From contig CM023540.1 of the NCBI GenBank assembly GCA_013350335.1, forward strand, positions 53,320,905-53,384,904: a stretch of 64,000 nucleotides of DNA, read 5' to 3'. The stretch comes from Chimonanthus salicifolius. Its lineage: Eukaryota > Streptophyta > Magnoliopsida > Laurales > Calycanthaceae. The translations under genes and the position numbers were made by a program. The stretch's first letter is position 1; each line of letters starts with the position of its first letter. Below are positions 34,970-58,940 of this stretch, in pieces. The notes below the pieces were generated by a model. That model was given only the letters and a program-made list of their open reading frames with translations. It made no database searches and was not told the origin of the DNA.

Positions 34970-35676
34970 TGATCCGATGATTCGGATATTTGGGTGACAA
35001 TGGATAGAAATGCAGCAGAATGAAATGAGAATCAAAGAGAGACACAGGATTTGAGAAGAAAACTCTTCCTTTTTTTGGTATTTTCTTCTATTTTCTGAAA
35101 GTATTGTACAATCACGAGTCTTGGTGTACATCAACAGTTTCGAGACTGGCAAAAACAAAAGAAAAAACAGATAAAAGTGGGCAGAAACTGCTCAGAACTG
35201 TCAAAAACTACTCTAACCGCCTGCAGTTTTTGCATACCAGTCGACTGGTACTATCAGAGAACTGTTTGTTTTTACAAACTGACACTAGACGATGTACCAA
35301 TCGACTGGTACTGTTCACAAGCTGTGTAGACGATGTATTAGTGAATTGGTGGATCGACTAGTATCAGAAGTGAGCTGTCTGTTCTTATGGACAGATAGTA
35401 GACGATGTACCAGTCGACTAGTGGATTGACTAGTACTATTCACAGACTATATTAGACGATGTACCAGTTGTCTGGTGGATCGAACGATACCATCTGAGAG
35501 TGATCTGTAGCACAGTACAGTCACTAGACGATGTACCAGTCGACTGGTGCATCGACTGGTACCCTTAAAGACTTATTTTAAGTATTTAAACAAGAACACA
35601 ACAAGAGGAAACAAGGAAAAATGAAAAATGTATGGAAATACATGAAAATACAATAATGGGAGATCCTCCTGGATCA
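34970..35676 (-). repeat. 3' LTR of gypsy-C
   Basis: On the minus strand it begins TGATCCAGGAGGATCTC and ends AATCATCGGATCA. It contains a cluster of ACCAGTCGACTGGT palindromes and variants at 35235-35564, often preceded by AGACGATGT. Partner LTR is at 41440-42153. Confidence 0.95.
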
Positions 35677-35773
35677 TGACTCCCCCTATTCAGGGGATTT
35701 AGGTCCCACTAAATCTTCAAAATTCCAAATGAGGGAACTCTTTAGCTCCCTTCTCTCGACTGTACCACCGTGA

Positions 35774-36067
35774 CTAGCTTGGCAGCTGATCCTTCTTGCC
35801 AATCTTGTAAGAATCATACGTCTTTCGCCTAGTCTCCATAACCTTCTTCTCCAATATGCAATCTTCAGACAGTGGATCGTCCCGCTCTACGCACAAATCA
35901 TCAATGGATGGTAGTCGCGTCTCCTTCTCTGAATCTTCATCAAGCATAGAAGGTTCAAACAATTTCAAATTCTCGGCATTGATGACCGAGTACATCTGCA
36001 AAAATGACTCAGGAATTCTGTGCTCCTCTTTAGCCTGGTATCCATCATTCCCCAAAGTGAATTCCAA
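35774..36067 (-). pseudogene. gypsy-C C-terminal (chromodomain-like) region
   Basis: The minus strand reads QMYSVINAENLKLFEPSMLD, then ETRLPSIDDLCVERDDPL and RRKTYDSYKIGKKDQLPS. This is the tail that follows integrase in a class of plant gypsy elements and may help target chromatin. It is joined directly to a truncated integrase core at about 36067. The first residues (MEFTLGNDGYQAKEEHR) read the integrase core in a shifted frame, which marks the deletion junction. Confidence 0.75.
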
Positions 36068-36534
36068 AAATGACTCAGGAATCGACTATCTCTATCTGAG
36101 ACAATAGACATAAGCAACCCATAATGCTTCCAAACATGGAAAAAGAATAGCTTCGCTGCTGCCTCTCCTGTCACTGTCTTCTTGCAAGGGATGAGTTCCA
36201 CCATTTTGCCTAACCGATCCACAATAACAAATAGATAATCATATCTAGACTTGGTCTTCGGTATGCCTCCCAAAAAGTCCATCGAAATACTCTCCCAAGG
36301 TTTTGTAGGTACTGGTAAAAGAGTATATAGTTCTACCTTCCTGTTCGATGGCTTCGTAGTGTCGCAAAGAACACAACCTCTAATGTATCTAGCCACATCT
36401 AACTGCATCTTGGGCCAAAAGACATGTCTTTGAAGATTAAGTAGTTTCTTCTCAACCCCAAAATGTCTTGCCAATCGGGATGTATGAGCTTCTCTAACCC
36501 ACTGTAATATGTCCCCGTCTTTCGGTATACACAA
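35965..36534 (-). pseudogene. gypsy-C integrase, truncated core
   Basis: A 189-codon frame. It starts inside the zinc-binding domain (HTSRLARHFGVEKKLLNLQR, then YIRGCVLCDTTKP), then core block PWESISMDFLGGIPKTKSRY with the first catalytic Asp, and SIVSDRDSRFLSHFWNSLW with the second. The third catalytic residue (Glu, in the YHPQTDGQTE block) is gone: the frame runs into unrelated residues after RLKRSTEF. A short direct repeat, AAAAATGACTCAGGAAT, lies at 36000 and 36067, on either side of the junction region, suggesting a microhomology deletion. It could not catalyse integration. Confidence 0.9.
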
Positions 36535-37138
36535 CTATGACCCTTTATACATCAACCCATCCTTCAGTTCAAACTCTATAGTCTAACCTTGTTGTAGCTT
36601 CTCAAACACTGTCTTGAAGTCTTCATCAGTGTCATACCCTTGTGCATACTTAGTAAGGGCCATAGGCTGGATTTGCATTGCCACCGTTAGAGTAGAGCTC
36701 CTCTGTGTAGATGGTCTAGACAACATATCAGCTAGCTTATTCGTGGCTCTTTTCTTGTATTAAATCACTAGATGAAACTGTTACAAATATGACATCCACT
36801 TCATATGACAAGCTTTCAGCAACTTTGACTGAATTTGTAAATACTGAAGGGGTTTGTGGTTTGTGTGGATTGTGACATCTTTCCCCAATAGATACATACA
36901 TCAATGCTTCACCTCCTGGTGCAAAGCATATATCTCCTTATCATAAGTGGGGTAATTAATCACCGGTCCACTAAACATCTAAGAATGATAAGCCACGGGC
37001 TTCCCATGCTGCAACAATACAACTCCCATGGCATATGTAGATGCATCCGCTTGAACCTCAAAAGAGCGATGCAAATTTGGCAATGCCAACACTGGAGCTT
37101 TTGAAATCTTCCATTTCAACAACTGAAAAAATGTCCTC
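36535..37138 (-). pseudogene. gypsy-C RNase H region
   Basis: The minus strand shows VLALPNLHRSFEVQADASTY, then GVVLLQHGKPVAYHS and YDKEIYALHQEVKH, then VTIHTNHKPLQYLQ and ATNKLADMLSRPS. These match the RNase H domain and its tether end. Several in-frame stops are visible. RNase H would remove RNA from the RNA-DNA hybrid during reverse transcription. Confidence 0.85.
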
Positions 37139-38099
37139 CTACTTCTTCATCCACTCAAACTTGTGATTGGCCTTTGTCAATGCATGCAAAGACTCTACAA
37201 TTTGTGAAAAATGGACGAAGAACATTTGTAGGCACTGATAAGCTCCCATAAAGCTTTTTACGTCAGTCACTGAACGAGGTTCAAGCCATTTGGTAATGAT
37301 CTCTATCTTTGAAGGGTCCACTTTCAACTCTCCTGCTCCAACTACAAAACCCAAATACACCAACGACTGCTTCCAAACTTCACACTTCTATCCATTCAGC
37401 TGGAGCTGATTCTCCCTCAACACCCCTAACACCTTCTTCAAATGAGCAATGTGATCCTCCCATGTCTTGCTATAAATCAAATTATCATCTACATACACAA
37501 TAACAAAATCTTCAATGAAAGGACGCAATACCTCATTCATCAATCTCATGAAAGTTGCAGGTGTGTTGCACAATCCAAATGGCATGACTAGCCATTGAAA
37601 TAGCCTTGCCTTGTCTTGAATGCAGCCTTCCAGGTATCTTCCTCGCGAACTCGGACTTGGTGATAACCCGACTTCAGGTCCAACTTTGTGAAAAAGTGGG
37701 CTCCTTGTAGTTGATCCAGCAGATCAACAATCCTCGGTAAAGCTTACCAATCTTGATTGTAGTTTTGTTCAAAGCCCTGTAATCGATGCACATTCTCCAG
37801 CGTCTGTCCTTCTTAGGCACCAACAATACTGGAGATCCACAGGGTGAGCAACTATGTTTGATGACTTCATGCTCCAACAACTCTTGGATTTGTTGCTGGA
37901 TCTCATCATTCTCTGTGATGGAGGTACGATATAGGCCTAAGTTAGGTAGGGAAGCATCTCCTACTAACTTTATATCATGCTCCACAGGTCTGTGTGGTGG
38001 TAGACCTTGTACCTCTTCGAATAGCTCATTGAAAGTCAACTTGACTTTCTCAACTTCAGTTTCCTGTTTGGGGGTGAGTAATACTGTAGAGAGTGCCAC
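37139..38099 (-). pseudogene. gypsy-C reverse transcriptase
   Basis: Minus-strand blocks in order: [59 protein letters not shown] (37674-38099); MPFGLCNTPATFMRLMNEVL; EDFVIVYVDDNLIYSKTWED with the catalytic YVDD (37388-37585); MVYLGFVVGAGELKVDPSKI (37139-37363). Frameshifts separate the blocks, and the stretch between IDYRALNK and MPFG is disturbed. All major RT motifs are nevertheless recognisable, so decay is moderate. Confidence 0.92.
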
Positions 38100-38700
38100 T
38101 TTAACTGGTGGTTGTTCCTATGGCCTGATCATCAACAGGACAAACTTCCCACAAGAATTCACCATCCTCTTGGCCTGTGTAGCTATGACCAAAGTGGTGG
38201 TGGTCTGTGGTTTGCTGGCATTGGCATGAAATTCTTTTCCGTTCTTCACAAACTGATACTTGCGTTGTCGCCTGTAATGAATGGCATCTCGGTCCCACAA
38301 GTATGGACTGCCCAAAATGATCTAACACATGTCCAATGGAACCACGTCACATGTCACGTCATTGATGTACTTCTCTGTGATAGAAAATTTAAAGGTGCAT
38401 TGTTTTGTGACCTTCACCTCCACATCTTTCTGTATCCACCCTAATGGATAGGGTTTTGGATGTGCTGTCGTCACCAAACCCATCATTTGTACCTAACATT
38501 CTGAAATGAGATTCTTCGGCCTTCCAGGGTCAACTATTGCTTCTATCACAATTTGTTTCAATTGAATCTTCAAGTGAAAAAGTTCTTCTCTTAACTTAGA
38601 GTTCTTAGTAGTCTCTGTAGTCTTTGTCATGAGTGAGAGTTTACTATCTGCTGTCTTCAGCTCTTCAATCTCTTCCACTTCACGGACATTCAACACTGCC
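38100..38700 (-). pseudogene. gypsy-C protease region
   Basis: On the minus strand, ELFHLKIQLKQIVIEAIVDP is followed by GRPKNLISEC (38493-38696), the gypsy aspartic protease start with D-P-G in place of D-S/T-G. The end block MGSPYLWDRDAIHYRRQRKY is at 38118-38315. Between them the frame is broken. D-P-G may be the lineage's own form rather than decay; I cannot decide without relatives. Confidence 0.75.
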
Positions 38701-39629
38701 TTTCTGTCCTTCTTCAGGCATTGCTCAGGATGTAGTTTCCAGCACTTATCTTCGTATGACCAACCCCTTTGCAGTGGTCACAAGTAGGACCTTTTGCATT
38801 ACTCAACTTCCTCGGCTGACTAGACTCACCCTTGCTGTTACCACCCATACCAGATCTTCCTTAGAAATTTGGCCTGACCTCAACCCTATCAGACTTCTTG
38901 TTCTTTGCCTCTATGGCGATGGGTTTCACTGTAGCTTCATTGATGGAGCTAACTTTGAAAAATTTTAGCTCATTTCGATTGTATTCAGCTAAACCACCCA
39001 CATACTTCATAAAAAATTCAAAATTTTCGATAGACATGCTCAGTACAATAGCATGAGTGTGAGACTCAGTGGTGTACTCTTGAACCAATTGGCCAAATCA
39101 TTGTCTCAAGTACTGCCACATAATCCACCGGTCTTCCTCATGTCCAATTGGGTAAAACTATTTCCAGACCAACTTCTTAAATTTGCTCCAAGTTAATTCA
39201 GCAATGTTGTGGCGCCTAACATAAGCGCTCCACCATGTCAATGCATGACTTGACATCTTCAGTCGTGCCAGACTGATTTTTTGTGTACTGGTGTATACAT
39301 AGAGAGTAAAATAGTTCTCCAATTGATCTATCCAATTGTTTAATGTCTCCACATTAGCATCACCATTATAAACAGGAATTTCTAATTTGAAATCAACATG
39401 GAAAGGATTCTTACCGTCTAGGTCATCTACCATCTTGGTTTGATCGACATCTTCCTCATCTTCTTCCTCTTCATCTGTCTCGTCTGTAACTGTCGGTTCA
39501 TTCCTCTTCTTCTTGGACGAACCCACAGATGTTTGTTTCAGAGAGGACTTTACGGCAACACCTTCCACTAGCTTGGTGACTAACTCCGTTAATGCAGTTA
39601 CTTGTTCCTTCAATTTGGATAAACGCTCT
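38701..39629 (-). pseudogene. gypsy-C gag, main part
   Basis: The 151-codon frame at 39158-39613 has an acidic stretch (DETDEEEEDEEDVDQTK) and then the gag fold PVYNGDANVETLNNWIDQLE and RLKMSSHALTWWSAYVRRHN. After a stop, 38861-39088 continues with VQEYTTESHTHAIVLSMSIE. A zinc knuckle near 38720-38790 reads CDHCKGVGHT and, one frame over, EDKCWKLHPEQC, so the knuckle is intact apart from a frameshift. The N-terminal part lies across the solo LTR at 41269-41389. Confidence 0.88.
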
Positions 39630-41268
39630 TGTTAGTACCCGGCTTGCCGAGTCACATATTTGTCAAGTTCGTGACTCAGAAGAAAATTTTTCCTAAATAA
39701 ATAAGCTCAAGACTCAAAACTCAAGTGTTGGTTGAAGTATGTAGACTCAACGGATCGACACATGTATGGAAATCACGGAAGGTTATTGGCCATAGATGAC
39801 CTTAGGTGGAACCCAAACCTGAGGAGGACCATCCCTAGGCTTATACATCATATCTGGAAAAGGAACCAAGCCTAAAAAGTGTTTGACACCAAGAGGAACC
39901 CATCTTAGAAATGTGTCAACAGACTGTCACAGATAACACATTGTATCGGCTACCCATCACCATTGACATCTTACGGCCGGTCGTGGACATATGACCCCTC
40001 GTTTACTTGTCCACCAACTCCTCGGTCACAACGACCTTTCGATAGTATTTAGCCTTGATCTGGACTGTCATTTACAGTCAGGCTCAGGACAATCAAATCA
40101 TTGGAGGCGACCCTTCGTGTGGTATAACACGAGATATCGGTCGTATGACCAATCTCCAGGATAGGGCAATATCACATCAGGCACACGTCCTGTCGCCCTG
40201 GGTTCAAGTGAGGTCTGTTTTGACAAAGAACTGTCATGACAGGATAGCCTCAAGCCGATTCGATCGCCAATCCAAGATCTGTTATTCAGAACATGGACGA
40301 CCACTCGTGGACAAGACTAATCACTTTGTTACCATTATTGTGTCGTTGTAGTGCATTTAATGCGCAATGGTCAGGTTGGTGAGCATGAATTCAAACACGG
40401 ACGATCGATTGTGTGGTCACGACAGACCATGTGGTTATGCTATTCCGGAAATTCTGTTTTGCCTATAAATACTTTGTTTGTTGGTAAGTTTTACAGAGTC
40501 CCTCAGAGCATAAAAATAACCATATTCTCAAGGATAAACTCCCAAGGAACAAAAGCAAAACCTCCTGGCTTATTCTCCCTTGGCAAATCGTAAGCAAATC
40601 ATTCAAGTATCAAATCCAGTTTTCATTGAGATTAAGAGAGAAAGATTAATCACATAATTTTAGGATAGATATTGGTTTATCCAATTTCCTAGTCACCCAA
40701 GGACTGTGATTACTTTACACGACTAGTCTACAAGGCGGAACATCGGGATTGTACGAGCACACATTGGGTGAATCTTCAAGAAGCACAATTCATCAGATTC
40801 GAACTCCAAGGCAAGTACTTCTTGGTTTTTAATTTCATTTTTAAAACCATATCAGTGTAAAGTGGATTAAGGAGAGGTACTTCGAACCACTATAAAAAAC
40901 TCTAGAGCATCGTCTCTGGCACAGTGGTGGGTGAAATTCCTAGCCAATTGAGTGAGGTGAAATTTCTACTCTAATTGTGAGGGTGTAAGTCCCCACATAG
41001 TGATTTTGAAGATAGCTCAAGGTTGAGCTTGTCCCAACAGTGAATATAGGTTGACGAACTGAGCCACTATACATCGTGTGTATTGTCTCCTTGTATGATT
41101 GATTGAATGTTATCTTGTACACTTCCAAGATCACACACTTGATTAACTAAGATTTAATTTTGCAGAGTTTCACATTAATCAAGAAATTTTTGAAAAGATC
41201 ATTAGCGTTGGGATTGATCTATTCACCCCCCCCTTAACTCAATCCTTTCTAGCATAACAGGAATTGCA
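39630..41268 (+). mobile_element. solo Sirevirus-like LTR inside gypsy-C gag
   Basis: It begins TGTTAGTACCCGGCTTGCC and is colinear with the LTRs of copies 1 and 2 (GACTCAGAAG, ACCATCCCTAGGCTTA, GCCACTATAAAAAACTCTAG, final TTCACCCCCCCC). No internal sequence or second LTR is present, so it is solo. The right end is uncertain; ending at 41268 gives flanks GCTCT and GCTTT, a 5-bp TSD with one mismatch. Gag sequence stands on both sides, so the insertion is later than gypsy-C. Confidence 0.85.
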
Positions 41269-41389
41269 GCTTTTTTAACTCATCGTTCACAACCATGTCT
41301 GACTTTCTCAAGAGTTTCATTCTTTCTGAACAAAGGTGCTTTGAGATTTCTTCACCGGACTTCTGGTATTGATCACGTGTCAAGACCAT
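41269..41389 (-). pseudogene. gypsy-C gag N-terminus
   Basis: The likely gag start ATG is at 41389 on the minus strand (MVLTRDQYQKSGEEISKHLC), about 37 bases after the primer site. It continues RMKLLRKSDMVVNDELKK up to the solo LTR border, and the gag coil continues at 39629 (LSKLKEQVTALTELV). A longer upstream reading frame is open through the primer site but would not be the natural start. Confidence 0.75.
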
Positions 41390-41439
41390 ATACCCTAGGC
41401 TTTCCAAAAGAAGGCGAAACCGAGCTACTGATACCAACT

Positions 41440-42153
41440 TGATCCGATTATCCGGACGTTTGTGTGACAATGGATAGAAATACAGCAGAATGAAATGAGA
41501 ATCAAAGAGAGACGCATGATTTGGGATGAAAGCGCTTCCTCTTTTTGGTCTTTTCTTCTATTTTCCAAAAGGATTGTACAATCACGAGTCTTGGTGTGCA
41601 TCCACTGTTGGAGATTGCCAAAAACAAAAGAGAAAGGGGATAAAGTGGGCAGCAACTTCCCAGAACTGTCGAAAACTGCTCTAACAATCTGCAGTTTTTG
41701 CGTACCAGTCGACTGGTATGTCGACTAGTACATCGACTCATACCATCAGAGAGTTGTCTGTTTTTATAGACAGACACTAGACGATATACCAGTCGACTGG
41801 TACTGTTCATAGGCTGTGTAGACGATGTACCAGTCGACTAGTGGATCGACTAGTATCATCAGTGAGCTGCCTGTTCTTTCAGAAAGACAGTAAACAATCT
41901 ACCAATCGACTAGTGGATCAATTGGTACTATTCACAGATTCTATTATACGATGTACCAGTCGACTGGTACCATCTGAGAGTGATTTGTAGCACAATGTAG
42001 TCACTAGACGATGTACCAATCAATTGCATCGATTGGTACCCTTAAAGACTTATTTTAAGTCATTAAACAAGAATACAACAATAGGAAACAAGGAAAAATG
42101 AAAAATGGATGGAAATACATGAAAATACAATAATGTGAGATCTTCATCGATTA
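41440..42153 (-). repeat. 5' LTR of gypsy-C
   Basis: Partner of 34970-35676. It has the same palindrome cluster (CCAGTCGACTGG and CGACTAGT variants) at 41702-42040. The terminal bases at 42149-42153 read GATTA where the partner has GATCA, a transition in the LTR end. Confidence 0.93.
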
Positions 42154-42689
42154 ATCTCATAAATTCGAATTATGATATTGCCAAAAAAAAATTCAATAAT
42201 CTTAAGAGGAGCCTTTCCAAATACGTATGATATAGCCACCCACGATTTTAGTTTTGTTCATGATTTAAGAGATGACAAACAGATTTTACAAAGTCTAAAA
42301 AGACCTTTGTAGATTCTTCATATTTCCATAAAAATCCCAATCAAGATAAGAGTTAGGATTTTTCTAAATCAAGGGAAGCCTTTCCCTCTTTTCAGTTTGT
42401 CATATGATATCTTGTAAGATATTTGGGTCAAGGGACAAATGACCTTGCGGTCCCATGCTGAAAATACAGCTATCATATATTTTCACTCAGATAAGGACAA
42501 CCTTTGAGGCCTCAACAAAATGCTTGAGGCCTCGAGGCTGAGAATCAAACATTTTCCAATTAACCATTGACTTCTAATGTATTTAGTCTTAGCCTAAGGT
42601 CCACTAAGGTTCACTTACCTGTGTGCCAATCACATGTTCTATGTGGATTCTTCAATGCATAGTAGATCTTCTGACATCTTCACATTCTG
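42154..42689. other. unassigned DNA hosting gypsy-C
   Basis: Continuation of the 33.7-34.9 kb host sequence beyond gypsy-C. It has GAGGCCTCAACAAAATGCTT and GAGGCCTCGAGGCTGAG near 42507-42540, another palindrome-rich patch of LTR style. No gene recognised. Confidence 0.4.
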
Positions 42690-43081
42690 GCAGTGTAATG
42701 TTTCAGAACCTAATGTCAGTCTTTGACCACGATGGATCGATCCTGACTGCATTGAGGGTCTATGAGATAAGACTGGTCGTGCTGACAGTGACACCAAATA
42801 CATATTTCCAAGTTGGGTTCCAATTCACTATCAACTTTCCTCTCTAGGCTTCATATGATTTTAAGCATAAGTTTTTTTAAGCCTAGGGATAGTCCTCTCT
42901 AAGGTGTGGGTACCACATATAGTCATCTATGAACATTTTATTTGTTTTATGATTGCCATAACGATGAGCTTAAATCCGGTGGAGCATGATCTTTTCTCTT
43001 GTTCATCTTGGGTCTTCAAGCTTCCAGCAAGTGTTTCTTTCCGAGTCATGGAATTGACAAACATAAGCCGAGGTACTAACA
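42690..43081 (-). repeat. truncated 3' LTR of Sirevirus-like copy 2
   Basis: Colinear with the last 390 bases of 61700-63564 (ATGTTTCAGAACCTAATGTC ... CCTAGGGATAGTCCTCTCTA ... TTGACAAACATAAGC). Homology stops near 42690, so about three quarters of the LTR is missing. Confidence 0.85.
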
Positions 43082-44133
43082 ATCTCCCCATTTGTCAATT
43101 TCATGACAAAACCTAAAAGCTAACCCATTTACAAAGTCACCATTATTATAACACATTTGAATACAAAAATATTACATGGATTACATGTACATATTCAAAT
43201 GGAAAACAAGACCATGGTCTTTGGATATTCTTGTTCAGCTTGCTTCACTTCATTTTCCTGTTCAAGTACATAAACAAGCAACACTAGAAAATCATTAGAG
43301 GGGTTAGTCCCAAAATATAAATATTCATACATGGACTAAATAAGATTTGTAATCAAGCTCCCCCATACTCCTTGATTTCCTAGTAACTAACACTACCCGT
43401 AGCTTATCCAAGCTATCAATGTTAGAAGATTTCTCCCCCAATCTTCTTTGAGTTTGATCTCCCAAACTCAAAGCATAGACATTCTCCCTGTGTCCATTGG
43501 CTTTGATGTCTTCTAACTTCTACTAATTTCTCCCCCATTTTGTCATTTAATTGACAAAGATTAGTAGACAGACATCGAGATTTAAGCACTCCCCCATGTT
43601 CCTTTGCATTTAGTGCTTATTTAGGTTTTGCTCTAACTCATGGTCTTCTGCTATGGTTCAGTGTACACTTCTCGTGTATCAAGATTAGTTTGTCCCTGCA
43701 CAAACTAAGACTCAGCTTTGCTGATTCCTTCCATGAGTGGAGCAATCGTCCTAGCATTTATAGAGTCTTCTCCCCAATTCTTGAAGTTATCTCCCTTAGT
43801 TTATTTCTCTCCAAGCTTTCTAACAAGCTTGCGTCTTCTTTTTCCTTAAGCTGTCATGACCAGTGACAGATGCTAATTACAACATATTTTGTGCTCCCCC
43901 ATTCTCCAAGGTGTGTGCAATTTCACAGCTTGATCCTCAGCTCCATAACAACCTGCATGTTAGTCTATTTTACAAAATCTATGTGATTAAATAGACATGA
44001 GATAGAGCACATCAAGTTTGCACATACAAAAAAGTGAACCATATCATTTAATTGATAAACCAGTCAGTACATATGGTTAGGAAAGAAAAGGGGGGGAAAG
44101 ACTATCCTAAGCAGATTCATCTGAGGAAAATGT
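43082..44133 (-). other. 3' non-coding region with a purine-tract array
   Basis: On the minus strand GGGGGAG or GGGGAG tracts recur. Plus-strand complements are CTCCCCCAT near 43361, TCTCCCCCAAT at 43432, TCTCCCCCATTTTG at 43530, CTCCCCCATG at 43590, TCTCCCCAATTC at 43779 and CTCCCCCATTC at 43893, with ATCTCCCCATTTG at 43082 next to the LTR. Repeated polypurine tracts before the 3' LTR are an established Sirevirus feature. Confidence 0.8.
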
Positions 44134-44547: not shown

Positions 44548-44918
44548 GGTTGCTAGGGGAGATCTGACAAGACTGATCCGAACACTAAATCTCAAAAACG
44601 CCGTGATACCCTTACTTTTGGAATTGAAGGAAGCAAAAACCCTAAGGTTTTCAGCTGAGATTTTGCTCCGAAAGGTCCTAATAGCTGGTCTAGGGCACGG
44701 GAGGGGAGAGGGAAATCGCTAGAGCTCAGTTGGAGAAGAAACGACGATTTCGAAACATTATGTCGTTTTTGCAGAAAAAGATATTTTAACTTACTCTTTC
44801 TGATTCACCGACCGGTCGTGACCAACAACCAGCCTGTGTCGACATGTCGATATGTATCGACCTGTCTCCTTTTGCGATTTCCTTCCTTTTCTGAAATCCA
44901 ACAATACCTGTCTGTCTG
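44548..44918 (-). other. upstream leader of the accessory ORF
   Basis: Non-coding. It aligns by eye with 29560-29725 of copy 1 in the opposite direction (AAAACC(T/A)TAGG and ATCACGG words). Dyads of the TCGACCTGTC/GACATGTCGA type appear at 44838-44870. It ends with CTGTCTGTCTG, the target of the Tekay insertion. Confidence 0.6.
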
Positions 44919-45160
44919 TGTAACGTCCCCCTTTTTTCACTTGCCAAAAATCAGAGTATAATTTTTTTTTTAAAAGAATGAAAGAAAGCGGGTTGTCACG
45001 ACGCGAGCTAAGTCCGAGTTTTCAAAACCGGACCCTTAACTGGCCACCTTTACGTGTGCGTGGACTAAGTCCACTTAAACATTTCACACGCTTTACAATA
45101 ATTGCAGAATTAACATGTGAATATGATTCCATTTATCTATTTGACATCAATAAGCAAGGA

Positions 45161-47750: not shown

Positions 47751-48989
47751 CTGTCTTCTTTGTTTGCATGTATGGCTCGACCCTTCTTCATGAAATCCAT
47801 TCCTTATCACTTTTAAACATAGATAATATCATTCATATACTCTTAGTGAGTTTACTCTACCCTTTAGCCAAAGCTAAGATCTTTTCATAATCATTCCAAC
47901 CTTTGTACCATTATAACATGGTTTTGGATCCAATCCTTTGATTGTTTGTATTCAACTCATATCCATTCCTGGAGTAGAAGAGGCAACTCCATGGCCCTAT
48001 AATAGTTTGGCCAGCCCTTTCAATCCAATATGGAACCCATAGGTTCGGCCACACCATCGCCAAAACTATGACTTCCCTTGTTCTTAATTCCATATTGTTT
48101 TACTTTACACATACCTTCTCTCCCGTCTCCTTCATTTCTTTGGTCTGTCATCTTCTTCCTTAGTCCTTCTTCCTCCTTCATTGCGCTTCGATTTTCTCCA
48201 AGTGTAGAGATGGAAACGGAAAATGAAGATGAGAGAAATCTTTTGGTGTGCAAGAGATGGAGTTCGGCCCAGGGATGTGGTGTGCCCCTTGGGTTGTGTC
48301 TCTTGTATAACAGTCCAACCCTTCCACTTCCCCTCATTAAGGTTGTATCTAACCAAGGTGTCTCTTGGCTTAACCAAGGAGACCCTTGGCTTAAGCCAAG
48401 ACGACTCTTTGTCTTCTGATGTGTGCATTGATTTCTTAGCCATTGAGATGGAAACCTTCCATCTTCCCAACTCAACTCAATTAATTTATCTTGAACTCAT
48501 TCATGGTTGAGCAAGTCAACCATGACTTAGCCGACCATGCATGTGGTGACTTGGTCACCACATGGCACGTGGGTCCTATCTTAGCCATATTGTTTGATGA
48601 CGTGGCACCTTGTCTAGTTGGCTTCCATGCATGCCACATGGCAATGCCACATCACCCACATGCCACTTCACTTGATGAGGTGGATTTAATGTATTGGGTT
48701 TTAATTGGGTAGCTGACCCAATTACTTTGAAATTAAGTTTACTACGACCCATTGGGTGCCAATTGGATAATTGACCCATTTCTTTACATTTACCCAATTA
48801 CTTTAAAATCAAACCTACCCATGATCCATTGGTCTTAATTGGGTAATTGACTCAACTCCTTACCCATCTAAGGTCCATTTCAGCTCTTTAAATTTCAAAT
48901 TCCATTGAATCACAATTTAAATGAACCGTTTCAATATATATTTATGTAATGAAAATCCGGGGTGTTACAATATTACCCTTTTTTGAAAT

Positions 48990-49404
48990 TTTCGTCCCGA
49001 AAATCGAGCAAAGTGGGGTTTCAAACAAATTACACAAATAACTCAGGATGAGCTGCTCTCATTTCTAATTCAAGTTCCCAAGTGGCTTCCTCATTACCAT
49101 GTCAGTCCCAAACCATCTTGACGAACGAAATTGCTCGGTTCCACAACACCCTTTGTTCCGTCTCAATCACTCTGACAGGCCTTTCGACGTAAGACACGTT
49201 GCTTTACACTTCTATGTCTTGCACATTCAGCACGTGCAATGGATCAAGATTGTACTTCCTCAACATAGAAATATGAAACACATCGTGTAGTGATGACAAC
49301 TGTGGAGGGAGTATCAAACGATATGCTACTTCCCCCACCCTCTCATGAATTGGAAATGGTCCCACAAATCTGGGTGACAGCTTCCCTTTCTTTCCAAATC
49401 TCAC
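48990..49404 (-). pseudogene. Tekay integrase C-terminal domain and chromodomain
   Basis: The minus strand reads MRFGKKGKLSPRFVGPFPIH, then VAYRLILPPQLSSLHDVFHI and SMLRKYNLDPLHVL, the SH3-like end of integrase. After a frameshift it shows EEATWELELEMR near 49060-49100, the typical chromodomain helix. The chromodomain recognises histone marks and steers insertion in chromoviruses. Decayed by frame breaks. Confidence 0.9.
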
Positions 49405-50384
49405 GTGTCCCTTTCATGGCCAGTCCTTCAAGAACACTAAGTCTCCCACTTCAAACTCAAGGAATCTCCTTCTCTTGTCAGCGTAGCTCTTCTGACGACT
49501 CTGTTCAGTGAGCAGATGTTATCAAATTCCTTTAATATGTTCTATGGTCTCTGCAACTAGCTGAGGTCCAATAAGTGCAGGCTCTCCGGCCTCTGTCCAA
49601 CACACTGGTGATCTACAAGGTCTACCATACAACGCCTCAAATGGAGCCATCTTGACGCTTGCCTGGTAACAGTTGTTGTATGAGAACTCAAACAGTGGTA
49701 GATGATCTTCCCAACCACCCTTGAAGTCTAGCATGCAAGCTCTCAGCATATCCTCCAATGTTTGTATGGTGTGTTCCGACTGTCCGTCGATTTGTGGATG
49801 GAAAGGTGTGTTGATTAACAAGTTGGTCCCCAAAGCCGACTGCATATGCTGCCACACTCTACCGGTGAATCGGCCATCTCTGTTGGACACAATAGTCCTG
49901 GGGATACCATGTAACCTGATGATATCCTTGATATACCGTCATCCCAAAGTCTCAGACGAATCTGTCATCTTGATTGGAAGAAAATGTGTAGACTTGGTCA
50001 GACGATCCACCACAACCCATATAACGTCGTTACCTTTTGAAGACCTTGGCAATCCTGTCACAAAGTCCATGGAAATATGTTCCCATTTCCATTCGGGTAC
50101 AGGTAGAGCTTTGAGCAATCCTGGTAGCTTCTGATGTTCTGTCTTGACTTGCTAACAAGTAAAGCAATGAGAAACAAAATCAGCTGCATCTCTTTTAAGT
50201 CCATGCCACCAATAAGGTCTTTTCAGATGATGGTACATTTTGGTGCTACCCGGATGAATAGAGAGTTTTGTTTAATGAGTTTCGATCAACAACTCTCTTC
50301 TGCAGTTTTGAGGCACATATGTCCTGCCTCGGAAGAAGAGACCTTGTCCAGGTCGTAATTCCCATTCAGGTATGACCTCACCAG
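49405..50384 (-). pseudogene. Tekay integrase, zinc and catalytic domains
   Basis: Minus strand from 50384: EWELRPGQGLFFRGRTYVPQ and NCRRELLIETH, then a zinc-binding H-H-C-C region (HPGSTKMYHHLKRPYWWHGL ... ADFVSHCFTC), then [20 protein letters not shown] with the first Asp. The second Asp region reads TIVSNRDGRFTGRVWQHMQ, where the usual S-D-R-D has become S-N-R-D. QIDGQSEHTIQTLEDMLRAC carries the Glu region. The 122-codon frame at 49522-49890 is the best preserved part. Stops elsewhere, and a solo LTR cuts it off from RNase H. Confidence 0.92.
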
Positions 50385-51094
50385 TGTAACACCCAGCCCT
50401 TTTCACTCTAATTTTCAGAGTTTTTTTTTTTTTAATAATCATGTGATCGGGGCGGAGTGTCACGACGCGAGTTAAGTTCGGATCTCTAAATCCGACCCTT
50501 AACTGGCCAAGCCCATGTGCGTATGAACTAAGTCCATAAAACTGATCCGCACATGGTATATATATAACTTGCGGAATTAACTTAGTCTTATTCTAACTGA
50601 GGTTGTAATAGAACCTATGACTATTCCAATTTTTCCAATATTAGATAGCGAAGTACATAATCTTATTCTCCAAAATTACTAACTAATATTAATCTACCAT
50701 TCAATCCAACCATCCAAAATAAACCAATCCACAGCATCTACTTATCTACTTATTACATGCCAACAAATCTAGTTACCAAATTACATTGTCCAAATAATTC
50801 AAATAACACATCCATGAATAGTCCATTCAAAATCATTCAAACCGCCCGAGTTTCCGTGCTTGGTCCTCTTCTCCAACCACGTTCTTTCCTTTCCCTACAT
50901 CATCCACTAAGGATATAGATAGGGCGTTAGATCAACGCGCCCAGTAGTGTTTCCGAATAGGGCTACCACATGGTTAGTCAAAATCATGCAAATAATATAA
51001 TAATAATACATGTGAGACAAAATTCCATAAAAACATGCTATGTATGAAACGAACATGTAATGAGTCCCACCCATCACCATTCAACATAGCCATC

Positions 51095-51246
51095 ACTTGA
51101 CGGGATTCTCATCGTCAAGGTAACCCACAATGGTCTTTCGGACACCCCGACAGAGTGTGGCCTCCGGATTCCTCCTGATGGGATTCTCATCATCAGGGTA
51201 CCCCACAGTGGTCTTTCGGACGCCCCGACGGAGTGTGGCCTCCGGT
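51095..51246. repeat. two-copy 78-bp tandem repeat
   Basis: GATTCTCATCRTCARGGTAM and CCCACARTGGTCTTTCGGAC, then CCCCGACRGAGTGTGGCCTC, occur twice in succession with few changes. It lies within the solo LTR, just upstream of the hairpin array on the plus strand. Confidence 0.85.
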
Positions 51247-51653
51247 TACAACACCATCATCCCATGCCATGCATGAGATCTCTATGCAAACATGTCATTT
51301 AGAAACATAACTTTACAAACATATAAGTTATCGAAATCAACGTAAAACAACATATGGAATAGTGGTTACAATAAAGGTAGGAAACCTACTGAAGAATCAC
51401 TTCAGCGTCCGTTCTTTCTTAGGCTTTATCTGGTCACGACTCGTTTGTCGTTCAACTCTCGTCACCTTGTGATAAATAATCAGTAAATCATATTGTCACT
51501 TAAATGTCCATTCACATATAAGACCCAAAACATCTTGATTTGGTCCTTCTTTCAAGTCCTTCCATTATTGCCCATATTTACAATTTTTTTTTTTGCCATT
51601 GGTTCCAACCAATCTACTTAGTCATCCAATCTTTAATCCACCAAACTTACTCC

Positions 51654-52799
51654 ATGGGGTTCGGCCATACATTTGGCCGAACCCAATGGTTCTTTTATCC
51701 ATTACCATATGGTTCTCCATTAGGGTATTTTAAACCTTTTAAATCAACATAGAACCATTACCAACTACTACTCATAAGTTTAGCCTATTTAACCCATTCA
51801 CCATGAATTAGCATAAAGTCCATCAACGTGCGTGGTTATTTACTGATATTAAGTACATAGATACATACATGATTCTTGAGTCAAAATCATAGAACCCAAT
51901 TAGTAAGCATAACCATATATAAACCAAATAAAAACCATAAAGTAACCCATGGGGTTCGGCCACTCACATGGCCGAACCTCATGGTTCTTTGAATCCAATT
52001 CTTCTAATGATCTTTCATCATTTATCATGTATCTTAGGCATAAAAACAGCAACCATAATTCTATTTAAAATCCTATAGAAACCCCATGGTATTGCGTGGT
52101 TTCTAACTCTTTAATTTCACAACAATCATCAATCTCTTTCATGGGGTTCGGCCATTCAAGTTGGCCGAACCCTATGTCCATGAATTGGTCCTTCAAACAT
52201 GCATTAGGTGCTATTTAAATCATGCAATATCAGTACCCTTTTACTGCCTTTATACCTCTTAGAAACCCTCTTTTAAACATGTATTTTAAATCTAATAACA
52301 TATGTAAAAACAGTCCCAACGTGCATGGTTTTAAATTTCAAAAACCATACACACTAATCAACTTTTTCCATGGGGTTCGGCCACCCAAAGTGGCCGAACC
52401 CAATGGTCCATTTCCACTCCTTTAATCCACTGATTTAGACTATATAAACTTCAGTCCTTGATGACCTTCAAGTCCATGTTTTAACCTTTTTAAACATACA
52501 TTTTATGTCCAATAAAACATCTAAAAACAGTCCTATACTTGTATGGTTTTAAATTCCAAAAACCATCCAAACCAACCAATTGTTTCCATGGGGTTCGGTC
52601 ATCCAAAGTGGCCGAACTCCATGTTCTCAATTTCCATCCTTTAAACCTTGTCATCACACTTTAAAACCTTACTTATTTCGGCCACAAAATGACCCCAAAA
52701 ATCAGTCCATAAAACCCATGGTTTTCATGTTTCCAAAACATGAAAACCATGAAATCTTTTACATGGGGTTCGGCCCTCCATGGTGGCCGAACCCAATGG
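51654..52799. repeat. array of six GGGTTCGGCC hairpins in about 200-bp units
   Basis: Six sites carry ATGGGGTTCGGCC, 8-10 spacer bases, then GGCCGAACCCMATGG: 51654-51689, 51949-51984, 52141-52176, 52369-52406, 52586-52622 and 52762-52799. Successive starts are 295, 192, 228, 217 and 176 bases apart. Between them TTTTAAACATGYATTTTA and AAAAACCATRCA words also recur, so each hairpin is part of a degenerate larger unit. Stems are 12-15 bp. Confidence 0.9.
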
Positions 52800-54021
52800 T
52801 TATTTTCACCATTTTAAATCCTCCATAATCAAGGTTAAATATTGGTGTATTCGTCCATGACCATGGCCCAATACATCCCCTACTTGTTTTATGTTTTTAA
52901 ACCAAAAAATCATAAAGATACTTACCAAATTTTCCAAACTTCCTCCTTGTCTTTGATCCTTGTTTTCTCCCTTTTATTTCTTCTTTTCTTTTGCTGTTTT
53001 GTGCTTGAATATTTGATGCCAAAACCTCTGCTGTTCCAGCCAAGAAGAACAACGAATTGGAGAGAGGAGAGAGGGAGAGAGAGATGAGGAAAATCTTAGG
53101 CTTTGCAATGATAAATTGGCCAAGTGATGGTGTTCATTGGTTTTGTATTTTAGCCATCAACACCCCTCCACTTCCTCATCAACTCATGCACAAAACGATG
53201 GGCATTGGGTGCCCTCCAAGGCACCCCTTGGCAGCTACCCATGCAGCCATTCAAATTCCCAAGCAACTCACCTCAAACCCATGCATTTCATTAACCATTC
53301 ACCATGGAACGCACCAAAACAATTCCCCAACGTGTGGGACTTGTTTTGGTTGGTTTGAGACCAGCCAACCTCTTCAAATTCCCATTAAACTCACTGATTT
53401 ACAGTCCCTTGGATTTCCATTTTGACTCACCCAACTCAAGATATTTTTATTCCAACCCAACTCATCACATTTAATGCTCCATCTTTGAGTCAACTCTTTT
53501 TTTAATTTAGACTCACTCCAAATCAGTCCTACTCAAGCTGAATTATCTCACACTTGAGTTCCATTGAGGGCCCACACGGTCATCCGTGGTCAAACTAGTC
53601 AACCTGACCCGTTGGGTCCACTTTTGGCTCCTTGACCAGTTTTTGACTCCATGACCCAATTATGGGTATTTTGGTCATTTGTAATTGGTTTTTGCATATG
53701 GATCAGGCCTACCCATTTCTTCTCTACTTGATTTCCAATGAAATAAGCTTAACCCCATTTAATTTAAATTCACAAAACGGTCAAATCATCCATTTTGACC
53801 CGATGGGTCCCATTTGGGCCCTTTGACCCATTTAGCCATTTTTGACCCAAATGATGAAAATTACCCAACCAGTCAAACTTAACATTCATAATATGCTCAT
53901 ATGATTTTAATTTGAGCAATGGGTCCCACTATTTCCTTTCTTCACATCGCAAAATAATTAATTTAACAACTCAGGGGCATTTTGGTAATTTTCCATTTCA
54001 TTGAGAAATTGGGGTGTTACA

Positions 54022-55110
54022 ACCAGTAGACATCTTGGCCCATATTTCTTCCACTTCCAGATCTGTCCACTGTTCCTGCTTAAACTTGGAAACCATGCTG
54101 GACCGTACCATCAGATTATACATACTCCCACGGCCTTTGATGTACAAATTGAATTCTCGGATGATCTTCAGCATTTCCCATTCTTTCATGATTAGGCTAG
54201 CCACAGTTGCATGTGACATGCGACTGAGGGCATCCGCCACTTTGTTCGCCTTGCCAGGATGATATTGCAATGCAAACTCGTAATCTTGCAGGTACTCCAT
54301 CCATCTGTGTTGTCTCATGTTGAGTTCTTTCTAATCGAACAGATACTTTACGCTCTTATGGTAAGAAAACACTTCAAATTTCTCACCATATAGATAGTGT
54401 CTCCAGCTTTTAAGAACGAAGACCACTACAGCTAATTCCAGATCATGTGTGGGATAGTTGCGTTCATGAATTTTCAGTTGCCTGGAACCGTATGCCGCTA
54501 TATGATGACTTTGAGTGAGAGAGCACCCAACTCCTTCTCCTGAAGCATCACAAAATACTTCATATCCCTTGCCTCTTTCCGGCAAGATCAGAATAGGAGC
54601 AGTCATAAGTTTCTGTTTCAGGTCTTCGAACCTTTGATTGCACATATCAAACCATTCAAATTTGACTCTTTTCTGGGTTAGTCGGGTGAGTGGAGCCGCA
54701 ATCATGGAGAAGTCCATAATAAACTTCCAATAGTAGCCAGCCAGTCCTAGAAAGCTACGGATTTCGGTCACATTCTTCGGAGCTTTCCAGTCTCTAATCG
54801 CTGCCACTTTAGCAGGGTCCACGGCTATTCCTTCCGCTGATATGACATGTCCTAAGACGTTGACCTCAAATAGCCAGAACTCGCACTTTCTTGCTTTGTC
54901 GTATAACTGAGTCTTCTTCAAAGTGTCCAAGACTATCGTCAGATGCTCACCATGCTCCTCCTGACTGGTGGATTAAATCAGGATATCGTCAATAAAAACA
55001 ATCACGAACTTATCCAGATAAGGACGAAAAATTCTTTTCATCAAGTCCATGAACACGGCTGGTACATTTGTGTGTCCAAATGGCATGACTACATATTCAT
55101 TTTCCCTCGA
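54022..55110 (-). pseudogene. Tekay RT C-terminal part and RNase H
   Basis: Minus strand from about 55105: [20 protein letters not shown], then [13 protein letters not shown] (catalytic FIDD) followed by a stop, then the 199-codon frame 54331-54930 with [60 protein letters not shown] and [20 protein letters not shown]. The RNase H end continues at 53998-54318 with LQYHPGKANKVADALSRMSH and reaches the solo LTR border. The conserved RT blocks before MPFG are missing: protease sequence joins nearly directly at 55110. Confidence 0.93.
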
Positions 55111-55440
55111 GTGACCAAAATATTACTCTGCGAAGATGATAGTCAATGCCGGCCTGGAAGTTAGCCAACCAATCCATGCCAAATATGATATCGTATTATT
55201 TCATCTCCACTACCAGATAGTTGAATTTAAATCTGAACCCAGCAAGTTTAGTGTCTATGGAAGTGTAGATCAGGCCCAATGATGTGTCTCAAATTGGGGA
55301 TACAATAGTAAGTGCAGTAGACAATTGTTGTACTAGAGTACCAGTAGCAGTTATGAAGGTAGCAGATATAAAGGAGTGGGATGCTCCTAAATCAAATAAT
55401 ACAAAGGCATATGAACTACCAACTACTGCCATACCTTGAA
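55111..55440 (-). pseudogene. Tekay aspartic protease (altered active site)
   Basis: The minus strand reads AVVGSSYAFVLFDLGASHSF, where the usual D-S/T-G active site is D-L-G, then YDIIFGMDWLANFQAGIDY, the closing flap block. Two stops lie between. The sequence then jumps to the RT MPFG region, which implies a deletion of roughly 200 codons of RT. The protease would have matured Gag-Pol. Confidence 0.88.
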
Positions 55441-56566
55441 TCACCTAATGATCAACTGTCTCTGGGGGAGGAACCAAACTATATAATCGTCCAGATCCTG
55501 TCGAAATAGGTTCCCGTCTTGTCTAGTTATGTGCTCTGGATGCTTGAGACTGAGCTGGTCGAACTGGAGGACAGAAGGAACCCCTGGAGTGAGGAGGTCT
55601 ATTGTTTTGTGGACACTCCCTCTTGAAATGGCCTTCCTGGCCACACTAGAAACAGGTACTAACACCTCGAGGAACCTGACAGACTGGCCTTGATGCGGAG
55701 GGCTTATTGGGACGAAAACCTCCAGTGGATCCAGAAGAAAGTGAGGGCCTCCCAAAGTTGGGTCTGAATCTCTTGTTCGGGTGGAAAATACTTCCCCCGA
55801 TCTGACCTCGTCGGTTATCCACAAACCTGACTGTCTCTGCCAACTCTTGTTCAGCTATGCTAGCTCGACTGACCACTTCTGCCAAAGTAGCTGCTTTGAA
55901 TATAGTGACCTTGGCTCTTAGATTAGGTTGCAGGCCTCGTTCAAACTTCTGAGCCTTCTTGTATTCTGTGTCTACCATATACAAAGCATAACATGATAGA
56001 CGGAGAAATTCTTGATAATAATCCGTAACAGTCATGGTACCTTGGACCAAATATATGAATGCTTGTGTCTGGCGCTCCTTCTCTTCCTCTGGAAAATAGT
56101 GATCTAGAAACATTCCAACGAATTGGTCCTAAGTCATCTCTTTCCTATCTTCCTCTGGAATTTGTGCTTGTTGACATTCTATAACTCTCCACCATTTGTC
56201 GGCATCGTCTACCAATTGTGAAGTAGCCAGCAGTATCATATCCTCATCACAAGTGATCTTGAGCATCTTCAAGATCTTCGTAATGTTCTCGATCCAGTTC
56301 TCCGCTCATGCGGGTCTCTCTTTCCTTTTGAAATAAGGGGGACGCTGTTGTTGGAAATCCTTGACAATGTTTCGGTCCTGCGATTCATTGGAGGTTGCAC
56401 CTCCATTGCCGTTCTGGTGTTGCTATAGAACGGAAGTGACCATTGCCTGTACCAGGCTCTGTAGTTCAGGAGGTACTTCAGGAATGTTTGCACTACCTTG
56501 TCCCTCTCTGTTCTGTTCCTCTTCCTGTTGCGGGTTTTGTCGGGTATTTCTTCTCCTCGGAGGCAT
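55441..56566 (-). pseudogene. Tekay gag with CCHC zinc knuckle
   Basis: The start ATG is at 56566 (MPPRRRNTRQNPQQEEEQN), the usual Del/Tekay gag opening, reached soon after the primer site. The gag fold follows: NWIENITKILKMLKITCDED, then the open 155-codon frame 55646-56113 with FLDHYFPEEEKERQTQAFIY and GTMTVTDYYQEFLRLSCYAL. An Arg/Pro-rich linker leads to a zinc knuckle near 55610-55650 reading CF, stop, CGQEGHFKREC, so a stop replaces one knuckle residue. At least four in-frame stops are visible overall. Confidence 0.92.
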
Positions 56567-56966
56567 TTTCCTAAGTCATCGAAACATTGATTTGACTTAG
56601 TTTTCTCATAAAATCTTATGTTTTCATACTTGGGAAAAATTGCTTAATCAACATCTTGTATTTCTTATTTTGGGGAATTCTCCTATGTGTCATATAGTGT
56701 TTCTCATGATGATGTTTCTTGTTCAGGGGAGGTACGTCCTATTTACTATGTTTGATAAATCCACAATTCACAATGATTGTCCTTCCCTTGATGTTATTTT
56801 CCTCGTCAATTGTTGTTCTCAGATTGAATGTTGATTCTTAACAAAGCAAATTAATCCGGCCCCCTGCAGCAGACTCCAAAGAGTCGGTCAGTTGGGATTC
56901 TTATCTTGTTAGTGAGACATGATACCATATAAATCTTACTTTGCAAGTTTCAATACTTCCGGTTTC
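56567..56966 (-). other. untranslated leader of the Tekay element
   Basis: About 400 bases lie between the primer site and the gag start, without recognised features. Leaders of this length are usual in Del/Tekay elements. Confidence 0.6.
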
Positions 56967-56980
56967 ACTCTGATACCAAC
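56967..56980 (-). other. primer-binding site of the Tekay element
   Basis: The plus strand reads ACTCTGATACCAAC; the complement GTTGGTATCAGAGT matches the initiator-Met primer site in 11 of 12 positions and abuts the 5' LTR. Confidence 0.9.
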
Positions 56981-58284
56981 TGTAACGCCCTGTCCTTTTC
57001 CACTCGCCAAAAATCAGAGTATATTTTTTTTAAAAAAAGTGAGAGAGAGCGGATACGTCACAATACGAGTTAAGTCCGAGTTTCCAAAATCTGACCCTTA
57101 ACTGGCCACCTTTACATGTGCGTGGACTAAGTCCACTTAAACATTTCACACACTTTAAATTAATTGCGAAATTAACATGTGAATATAATACCATTCATTT
57201 ACTTGACATCAATAAGCAAGGAAGCCAATCACCATATAATTAACAGAAACTTAATTAATATCAAACCATAACAAAATAATTGTAAGTTATTAGAATCCCA
57301 AAAATAACAGTTATCTCAATACGCCATTCCAAAATTAAGCTAAGTAATATAAGAATAAATTTGTCCAAGCTCCTACGCTTGGCTCCCATCATGTCCCATG
57401 TCCTTGCCATTTCCTGTTCCATCATCTATAGGGTAGAAGTAGCGCGTTAGTCAATGCGCCAAGTGGGAATTCCAAGTAGGGTTATGTACAGAGGATCAAT
57501 ATAAAATCAAGATAGAAACATCATATCATCTTTGTAAAACATCGTATAAATAATAAAATAAACCATGCATAATATCCATGTCAAATCATACTTACTTATG
57601 CAACATGCCATGGGTGTTAATACTAAATGATCACTCACCCAAATCCATATCCAATGACATCATATAAATAGTTTCCTTGATAAAACATTTTATCAATGTG
57701 TTCCCTTGGCCAATTACATCCGCAGTGTTTTGTGACGGCACCACTAGGTCACTGTTATACCTCCCACATATGTTAATCGGAATTACAAATGGAGTGTGGA
57801 CTCCTCCCTCTGTGCAGGGTTTCAGGACTGTTTACCCAGGAGCTCTTTGGCCTAGACTGTGCTTGTACCCATTTCTAATAATCCCATACAAGGCTAAAAT
57901 ATGAATGGTTCACATAGCTTCATACAAGCTAGTCTCAAGCCCCAAGTCATGTCCGGACAGTTCATAACTTGGCTTGTTGTCCCAGTATTCCCTCCCATGC
58001 CACACATGAGATAATGTATGCAAATATGCCATTTATTTCAAATCACATGTTATTATTGAAATTCAGTTCATAAAACTTATACCATTTGTTTAACCAAAGT
58101 GAATCATCATGTTTGGAAATAAAAGCCAGTAACATATATATAAAATCCATATGTATCTCTATAAGGTAGGAATCCTATCAACGTCCAGTAGAGTATCCTT
58201 GCTGTCTTGTGAAGATAATGATAACAATCACATAGAAATGAATTGAAACCCTTTTGTGAATCTCTTTACCTTATCACATTCAAC

Positions 58285-58287
<3 letters not shown>

Positions 58288-58349
<62 letters not shown>
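58288..58349. repeat. (TA)n microsatellite, 62 bp
   Basis: A perfect alternating AT run within the 5' LTR. At the same LTR position the partner has a short (CA)n run instead (47151-47168). Confidence 0.98.
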
Positions 58350-58353
<4 letters not shown>

Positions 58354-58437
58354 TGATTATCCCTTTAATTTCCGTCATCCCTTACATCCTTCAAGATAGA
58401 ATGAAACATCTGAATTATTTAAAACTAATCTTTTCAA

Positions 58438-58940
58438 TTTAGTCAACTGAATCATGCCCAGTTACTGTTCTCTGTCTTATTCGCAGACTTTCAGTCTGCT
58501 GAAATACATATTCAATCGGCTGAAACACAACTAATCACTGTATATACTTGACCCGTATCCTTTCAGTCGGCTGAGTCATGGGTTTAATCGGCTGACTTTG
58601 AGTCAAACCCTTCTGTATTCTCGGTCAATGTCCTTTCAGTCGACTGAATCAAAGATTCAGTCGGCTGACTTTGGATCAGATCCTTTGTGTCTTCGGCCAA
58701 TATAGATTCAGTCGGCTGAATCATCAACCAACAATTTACGTGTTTGGTAAGTCTATTTTCATTAGACTGAATCCTAGATTCAGTCGGCTGATATACCAAT
58801 AAACCTCATATATTTTAATCTAGTCCATGTTCAATCAATTGAATCACAAGATTCAGTCGGCTGAAACTCCCAGAAACTCCTTTCTGTTTCGGCCAACACC
58901 AGTTCAATCGACTGAATCCTAGATTCAGTCGACTGCCTGT
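58438..58940. repeat. palindrome cluster TTCAGTCGACTGAA in the 5' LTR
   Basis: About fourteen copies of TTCAGTCGRCTGAA and variants, colinear with 47245-47750. The individual palindromes differ between the two LTRs by point changes, and several changes break the symmetry. Confidence 0.9.

Follow-up and report, generated by a model that had tools for sequence, protein, structure and literature searches.

Palindrome arrays with a shared core in the long terminal repeats of two Ty3/gypsy families of Chimonanthus salicifolius: candidate enhancer arrays

We analysed a 64,000-bp window of the Chimonanthus salicifolius genome (GenBank assembly GCA_013350335.1, contig CM023540.1, positions 53,320,905 to 53,384,904 of the forward strand), in which two Ty3/gypsy insertions, here called gypsy-C and Tekay-like, carry a clustered array of short palindromic sites in each long terminal repeat (LTR), and the sites of both share the 10-bp core CAGTCGACTG. 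The palindrome arrays are a real, non-random feature, and detectable sharing between the two families is confined to the core. The reading that we favour, at a probability of about 0.55, is that both arrays are cis-regulatory (enhancer) arrays built on the site of a host factor. A short dyad-symmetric site would have been multiplied by tandem duplication, separately in each family, selection would have retained the multiplied site, at least in the Tekay-like family, and a host transcription factor would bind the site and drive transcription of the element. The original prediction on this DNA had offered three readings of the shared core, the best-fitting of which is a DNA-binding factor of the host common to both families; this is plausible, and enhancer function and factor binding are inferred here from sequence only.

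Enrichment and anatomy of the arrays

Across the window, CAGTCGACTG has 25 matches with 0-1 mismatch (9 exact and 16 with one mismatch), against a mean of 0.65 and a largest count of 3 in 100 dinucleotide shuffles, which is the count that had been proposed as a check, made for this window. The four LTR arrays contain all 9 exact matches and 15 of the 16 with one mismatch, the sole outsider being at position 26033. The commonest one-mismatch variant, CAGTCGGCTG (7 of 16), is not a perfect palindrome. When sites with up to two mismatches are counted, the Tekay-like arrays hold 13 and 12 and the gypsy-C arrays 5 and 5, while per-array shuffle means are 0.2-0.4 with a maximum of 4 (1000 shuffles each), and a control repeat pair at 25285-27031 and 30869-32612 has 1 and 0. 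Among the 71 distinct exact 10-bp palindromes of the window, CAGTCGACTG ranks behind two TA-repeat ones (34 and 33 copies), and the next most frequent after it have 3 copies.

The predicted sharing of a palindrome core by two gypsy families stands as real and enriched in arrays, with corrections to its coordinates and to the perfection of its palindromes. The intervals that had been given as LTRs delimit the arrays; the LTRs themselves, all on the minus strand, are 34970-35676 (3′, 707 bp) and 41440-42153 (5′, 714 bp) in gypsy-C, and 44919-48969 (3′, 4051 bp) and 56981-60039 (5′, 3059 bp) in the Tekay-like element. "About a dozen" TTCAGTCGACTGAA-type palindromes per Tekay-like LTR agrees with the count at up to two mismatches, but exact cores number 2 per LTR, and perfect 14-bp palindromes occur at only 2 + 1 of the 28 site positions. 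The several palindromes claimed for each gypsy-C LTR are borne out, with 2 exact sites in the 3′ and 3 in the 5′ copy. The two families are also as distinct as had been stated, because their four matching protein stretches are only 33-48% identical and blastn aligned none of their internal DNA at E 1e-3.

The palindrome copies within an array are not independent, since every array arose by tandem amplification. In the Tekay-like element, the arrays lie on the minus strand at 47246-47741 in the 3′ LTR (sense positions 1229-1724) and 58440-58935 in the 5′ LTR (sense positions 1105-1600). The spacing of sites alternates between 51-52 and 21-22 bp with the same gap series in both LTRs, and 14 site positions match one to one between them; a 3-mismatch match at 47287 falls off this spacing and was excluded. 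Six of the eight units are 72-73 bp long with two sites (the length of the last unit being assumed), and the other two are 51-52 bp long and lack the second site. A full unit consists of a block of about 36 nt, formed by site A (TTCAGTCGACTGAA), a loop (3-4 nt in most units) and site B (GATTCAGTCGGCTGAA), and then a spacer. One example of the block, at 47636-47671 as read on the plus strand, is TTCAGTCGACTGAATC (site A), ACAA and GATTCAGTCGGCTGAA (site B), and this site B reads GCCGAC on the sense strand.

The gypsy-C arrays, also on the minus strand, lie at 35235-35561 in the 3′ LTR (sense positions 116-442) and 41703-42040 in the 5′ LTR (sense positions 114-451), with 3-mismatch matches not counted as sites. 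Their site is TACCAGTCGACTGGT, which either forms a perfect 16-bp palindrome by itself or is followed by GGATCGACTGGTA or a variant of it. All five exact sites are perfect palindromes of 14-18 bp, and site flanks in the 3′ LTR array are TACC/GGTA or GGTG. The spacers are of two kinds that alternate; some of the longer ones carry a small inverted repeat of their own, e.g. CTGTCTGTTTTTATAGACAG, so that hairpins of two kinds follow each other in turn in parts of the array. The two gypsy-C LTRs differ at 13/81 positions in sites, at 32/217 in the spacers of the array and at 47/392 in the remainder of the LTR.

Selection, factor binding and rival explanations

The evidence for function comes mainly from the contrast between block and spacer in the Tekay-like arrays, counted in six of the eight units (u0 and u4, having no site B, were excluded). 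Between units, the block differs at 110/510 positions in each LTR (21.6%) and the spacer at 356/571 and 341/571 (60-62%). The spacers keep residual homology that none of 300 shuffles reaches in either LTR and are thus diverged copies, and since they have diverged, the amplification is old. One recent tandem amplification in each family, with unrelated cores, had been named as an account of the palindromes that would refute the prediction. It applies in part: the multiplicity does reflect tandem amplification in each family, but the cores are the same and the Tekay-like amplification is old. Between the two LTRs of the element the order is reversed, with 27/205 block positions different against 16/230 spacer positions (Fisher 0.036, block faster). 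With the LTRs taken as identical at insertion, the block shows 9 changes from before that event and 27 from after it, and the spacer 59 and 16 (Fisher 8e-8). Of the block changes that could be polarised, 13/26 are C>T or G>A, and one further change was not polarisable. This suggests that selection acted on the Tekay-like block during the active life of the lineage and was released once the copy had inserted; conservation followed by loss is the simplest reading of the before/after contrast and is indicated for this family.

The core centres on GTCGAC, which is RYCGAC on both strands, and the variant CAGTCGGCTG is CAGCCGACTG on the sense strand and contains RCCGAC. Both GTCGAC and GCCGAC would suit a factor that recognises RYCGAC. 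On the sense strand, RYCGAC occurs 7 and 7 times in the Tekay-like arrays and 3 and 5 times in those of gypsy-C. RCCGAC occurs five times on the sense strand and never on the other strand of each 516-bp Tekay-like array, against 0-1 times per strand in each remaining piece of these LTRs. Both LTRs carry G instead of A as the seventh base of the core at four of the six B positions and at two of the eight A positions, which lowers palindromy and breaks the stem in sense RNA. In four of these six cases the sense strand of both LTRs reads RCCGAC, so that this motif is found in both LTRs at 4 of the 14 positions (47464, 47515, 47587, 47660 and their partners) despite breaking the palindrome, which is easier to reconcile with a binding site than with a hairpin. 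An element of the CBF type, CBFHV, is given as RYCGAC in published lists (PMC3585799, PMC5892871). A member of the CBF/DREB group of AP2/ERF proteins would be a candidate for the factor, though a weak and rather improbable one. The site forms that we name as assay targets are TTCAGTCGACTGAA, TACCAGTCGACTGGTA and the GCCGAC form. Helical phasing of the Tekay-like sites was considered and rejected: a 10.35-bp period gives R 0.95, but the fit is quickly lost, with R of 0.77 at 10.4 and of 0.13 at 10.5. At 10.4, an R as high as that observed is obtained with 3.8% of random period/gap pairs, and gypsy-C offers only 5 sites per LTR.

Several points weigh against reading the arrays as enhancers. The block limits were taken from the very alignment used for the test, which makes the between-unit contrast partly circular, although the rates after insertion are free of this. 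Gene conversion limited to the block could mimic selection, and the block/spacer contrast covers one family, the Tekay-like. The match to RYCGAC is post hoc and plants have many factors, which makes it weak evidence. The gypsy-C arrays contain no RCCGAC (0 and 0), whereas the control repeat pair, without any array, has it 3 and 6 times in about 1745 bp per copy, with both strands counted; because of these control counts, we place low odds on the identity of the factor and on one factor serving different superfamilies (see below). Finally, two random palindromes would agree in 10 bp with a probability of about 0.0013, computed from base composition, which is not negligible genome-wide.

This last point bears on coincidence, in which unrelated repeats, amplified in tandem on two independent occasions, each happened to contain CAGTCGACTG. 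We consider this improbable, though worth weighing, since with tandem amplification the independent events number about 2 rather than 25, a 6-bp agreement of two random palindromes has a probability of 0.018, and the families share no similarity beyond the core. However, the central GTCGAC is also present in the published Vitis Sirevirus repeat CGGTCGACCG (PMC2829016, table 3), and selection on the Tekay-like block is indicated.

An action of the arrays at the RNA level, where paired sites would form hairpins that lead to small RNAs or silencing, as proposed for maize Sirevirus palindromes, seems to us about as doubtful as coincidence. All six folds of array RNA (the arrays of the two 5′ LTRs on both strands, those of the two 3′ LTRs on the sense strand) beat their shuffles, with z from -6.0 to -11.0 and 0/100 shuffles as stable; site pairs 21-22 bp apart could form a predicted stem, at most about 16 bp long and closed by a 3-4-nt loop, and an excess of small RNAs over Sirevirus palindromes has been reported (PMC5311732, PMC10760457). 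The hairpin trigger named in the original prediction is in this respect possible, but the pairing leaves no covariation: 130/168 A-B hairpin pairs are complementary against a permuted mean of 130.6, and 149/196 pairs within sites against 149.8, in a test that is blunted by decay since insertion. The commonest variant, CAGTCGGCTG, places a C-A mismatch in the sense RNA. Strong folds also lie outside the arrays, as a sense-strand scan of 24001-61300 (247 segments, 16 shuffles each) gave z below -4 in 31 segments, and 18 of the 25 strongest miss the arrays, although the strongest of all is a gypsy-C array (z -9.4). The absence of covariation and the seventh-base G together lean towards recognition of DNA over RNA.

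Traces of silencing give no further help to an RNA-level action, as deamination between LTR copies is not consistently raised at the sites, with small counts throughout. In the Tekay-like pair, it is 3/40 at sites against 23/124 outside for CG and 13/101 against 23/147 for CHG, while CHH is higher at sites (4/26 against 96/1593). In gypsy-C, the values at sites are 3/18 (CG), 5/29 (CHG) and 3/32 (CHH), and outside 6/32, 5/54 and 13/197. Observed/expected CpG is 0.76-0.90 in the arrays against 0.23-0.65 elsewhere in the LTRs, with an array GC content of 39-43%, and CHG per 100 is 6.6-7.0 against 0.6-1.9 in the Tekay-like LTRs and 5.5-6.7 against 4.3-5.8 in those of gypsy-C. Neither deamination nor the CG/CHG composition of the LTRs gives a sign of special methylation at the arrays.

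Horizontal copying of an LTR module between the families, or common descent of the arrays, would explain the identical 10-bp core but is very improbable, because nothing detectable is shared outside the core: arrays with their sites masked align no better than shuffled ones in 4/4 comparisons (P 0.5 to 0.83), the best LTR-to-LTR blastn match among 4 comparisons has E 0.10, and the families differ in unit length, spacers and flanks (TT/AA in the Tekay-like family, TACC/GGTA in gypsy-C).

The two elements and neighbouring repeats

The gypsy-C element (34970-42153, minus strand) is recognised as a complete Ty3/gypsy insertion by its LTR pair, target-site duplication, primer site and domains, with its coding pieces broken. 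Its LTRs, 86.7% identical over 690 aligned positions, begin and end TGATCC...GGATCA, the right copy terminating in CGATTA, and the duplication ATCTC is found at 34965-34969 and 42154-42158. The 5′ LTR is adjoined by TGGTATCAG, a primer site of the initiator-Met type, and the domains are RVT_1, Integrase_H2C2 and Ty3_capsid. These domains and those of the second element we take to be marks of Ty3/gypsy.

The Tekay-like element (44919-60039, minus strand) is a complete long-LTR Ty3/gypsy insertion by its LTR ends, target-site duplication, primer site and domains, again with broken coding pieces. Its LTRs are 89.9% identical over 2984 aligned positions and have the ends TGTAAC...GTTACA (GTAACA in the right copy); the duplication GTCTG lies at 44914-44918 and 60040-60044, and TGGTATCAGAG adjoins the 5′ LTR. 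Retrotrans_gag, RT_RNaseH and SH3_Tf2-1 domains were found; no chromodomain was recognised, as a 33-aa piece after SH3_Tf2-1 had no Pfam match, with pieces not read through stops. Tekay was the label of the original prediction, which the long LTRs, the primer site and the integrase C-terminal domain fit. The left LTR is longer than the right by 992 bp and has internal duplications (44919-45074 with 45161-45311, and 45756-45901 with 45933-46079). A 151-codon open frame occupies the same place in both LTRs (48020-48475 and 59214-59669, minus strand, which is the sense strand). A perfect (TA)31 microsatellite at 58288-58349 lies downstream of the array, in the sense direction, in one LTR, and at about 47151-47168 the other LTR has a short CA repeat in its place. 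Between the integrase and RNase H pieces, there is an LTR-like fragment, 77% identical to 45161-45310, together with tandem duplications (50385-50536, 51098-51245 and 52267-52644). Together they possibly represent a nested insertion, and strong predicted folds occur nearby (z -7.4 at 50251 and -6.7 at 52501).

The control repeat pair is 88.8% identical and likely represents LTRs without a palindrome array. Sequences related to it are found at 30448-31246 and 42717-43503 (inverted), at 40682-41081 and at 62037-63548 (inverted).

Relation to known LTR palindromes

The closest known kind is the palindromic repeated motif of Sirevirus LTRs (Bousios et al. 2010; PMC2829016, the source for Sireviruses in this paragraph). 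As there, a short dyad-symmetric motif with a related core recurs many times within the LTR, with outer bases that vary by element; perfect palindromes of 14-18 bp occur in both families here, although most Tekay-like sites are imperfect. The Vitis motif CGGTCGACCG (table 3) differs from the present core by one symmetric pair of transitions, and a comparison of the Sirevirus motifs with PLACE returned mainly sites of stress factors. In Sireviruses the motifs are grouped in the LTR's upper half, ahead of the TATA box (section 9). The present arrays begin at 16-36% of LTR length in the sense direction (gypsy-C 16% and 16%, Tekay-like 30% and 36%). The differences are also clear. Sireviruses are Ty1/copia elements and their motifs were reported as Sirevirus-specific, absent from the classic retrotransposons of the set studied, whereas the hosts here are two Ty3/gypsy families by their domains. 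The Sirevirus signature is CGG-CCG (except in Tnd-1), whereas here it is CAG-CTG, with CGG only in the CAGTCGGCTG variant. Sirevirus motifs form CpG islands, which the low array GC content given above does not suggest here (CpGplot, the program of that paper, was not used). Sirevirus motifs number at least 8 per element; here the counts at up to two mismatches are 13 and 12 per LTR in the Tekay-like element and 5 and 5 in gypsy-C. TATATA-like stretches lie downstream of the arrays in the Tekay-like LTRs, and the pattern used found no TATA-like stretch downstream of the gypsy-C arrays.

The palindromes of maize Ji and Opie were reportedly described by Bousios and colleagues in 2016 as small-RNA hotspots. 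Like those, the present palindromes are clustered in the LTR with strong predicted structure (PMC5311732, PMC10760457); unlike them, they have a different core and no covariation. The copia palindrome CACCGGACNNNGTCCGGTG is also the most abundant motif of structured Helitron regions in maize (PMC10760457), and because it is common to copia elements and Helitrons, sharing of a core across element classes has precedent. A further likeness is offered by the TRAYC-like satellites of Silene latifolia, where an imperfect palindrome is the only similarity of two families, although those are not LTRs and their palindrome is another one (PMC3212565). Among the open-access papers listed, judged by titles and the starts of abstracts, we found none describing arrays of this kind in gypsy LTRs, and among the matches listed for open-access texts containing CAGTCGACTG, no title concerned plant LTRs. 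Tandem factor-binding boxes in the LTR are a feature of stress-responsive LTR promoters, such as the Tnt1 boxes and the heat-responsive ONSEN. The motifs here differ from both, and the boxes here are putative; box I of Tnt1 is mentioned in PMC2829016.

In viral contigs, two 14-mers were found in 29 and 36 stretches; the exact 14-mer occurs once in 64 of 65 stretches and twice, about 800 bases apart, in the remaining one (L033), a search that did not cover arrays of inexact copies. A protein search with the reading frame of the array gave no candidate, and as the plant content of the database is uncertain, this says nothing about plants.

Taken with these comparisons, the arrays may be regarded as a gypsy counterpart of the palindromic repeats of Sireviruses, and for one of the two families past selection can be argued. 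It is conceivable, though quite unlikely, that one host factor of the CBF/DREB kind has been exploited by unrelated superfamilies, gypsy here and the copia Sireviruses, through independent arrays of YCGAC dyads, in which case LTR palindromes would be convergent enhancers first and silencing targets second. Whether the LTR palindromes of Sireviruses are enhancers for the element or silencing triggers for the host is a standing question. The same core in two gypsy families, together with a contrast before and after insertion that separates selection from decay, and with a candidate site named, would provide a further system in which this question may be approached.

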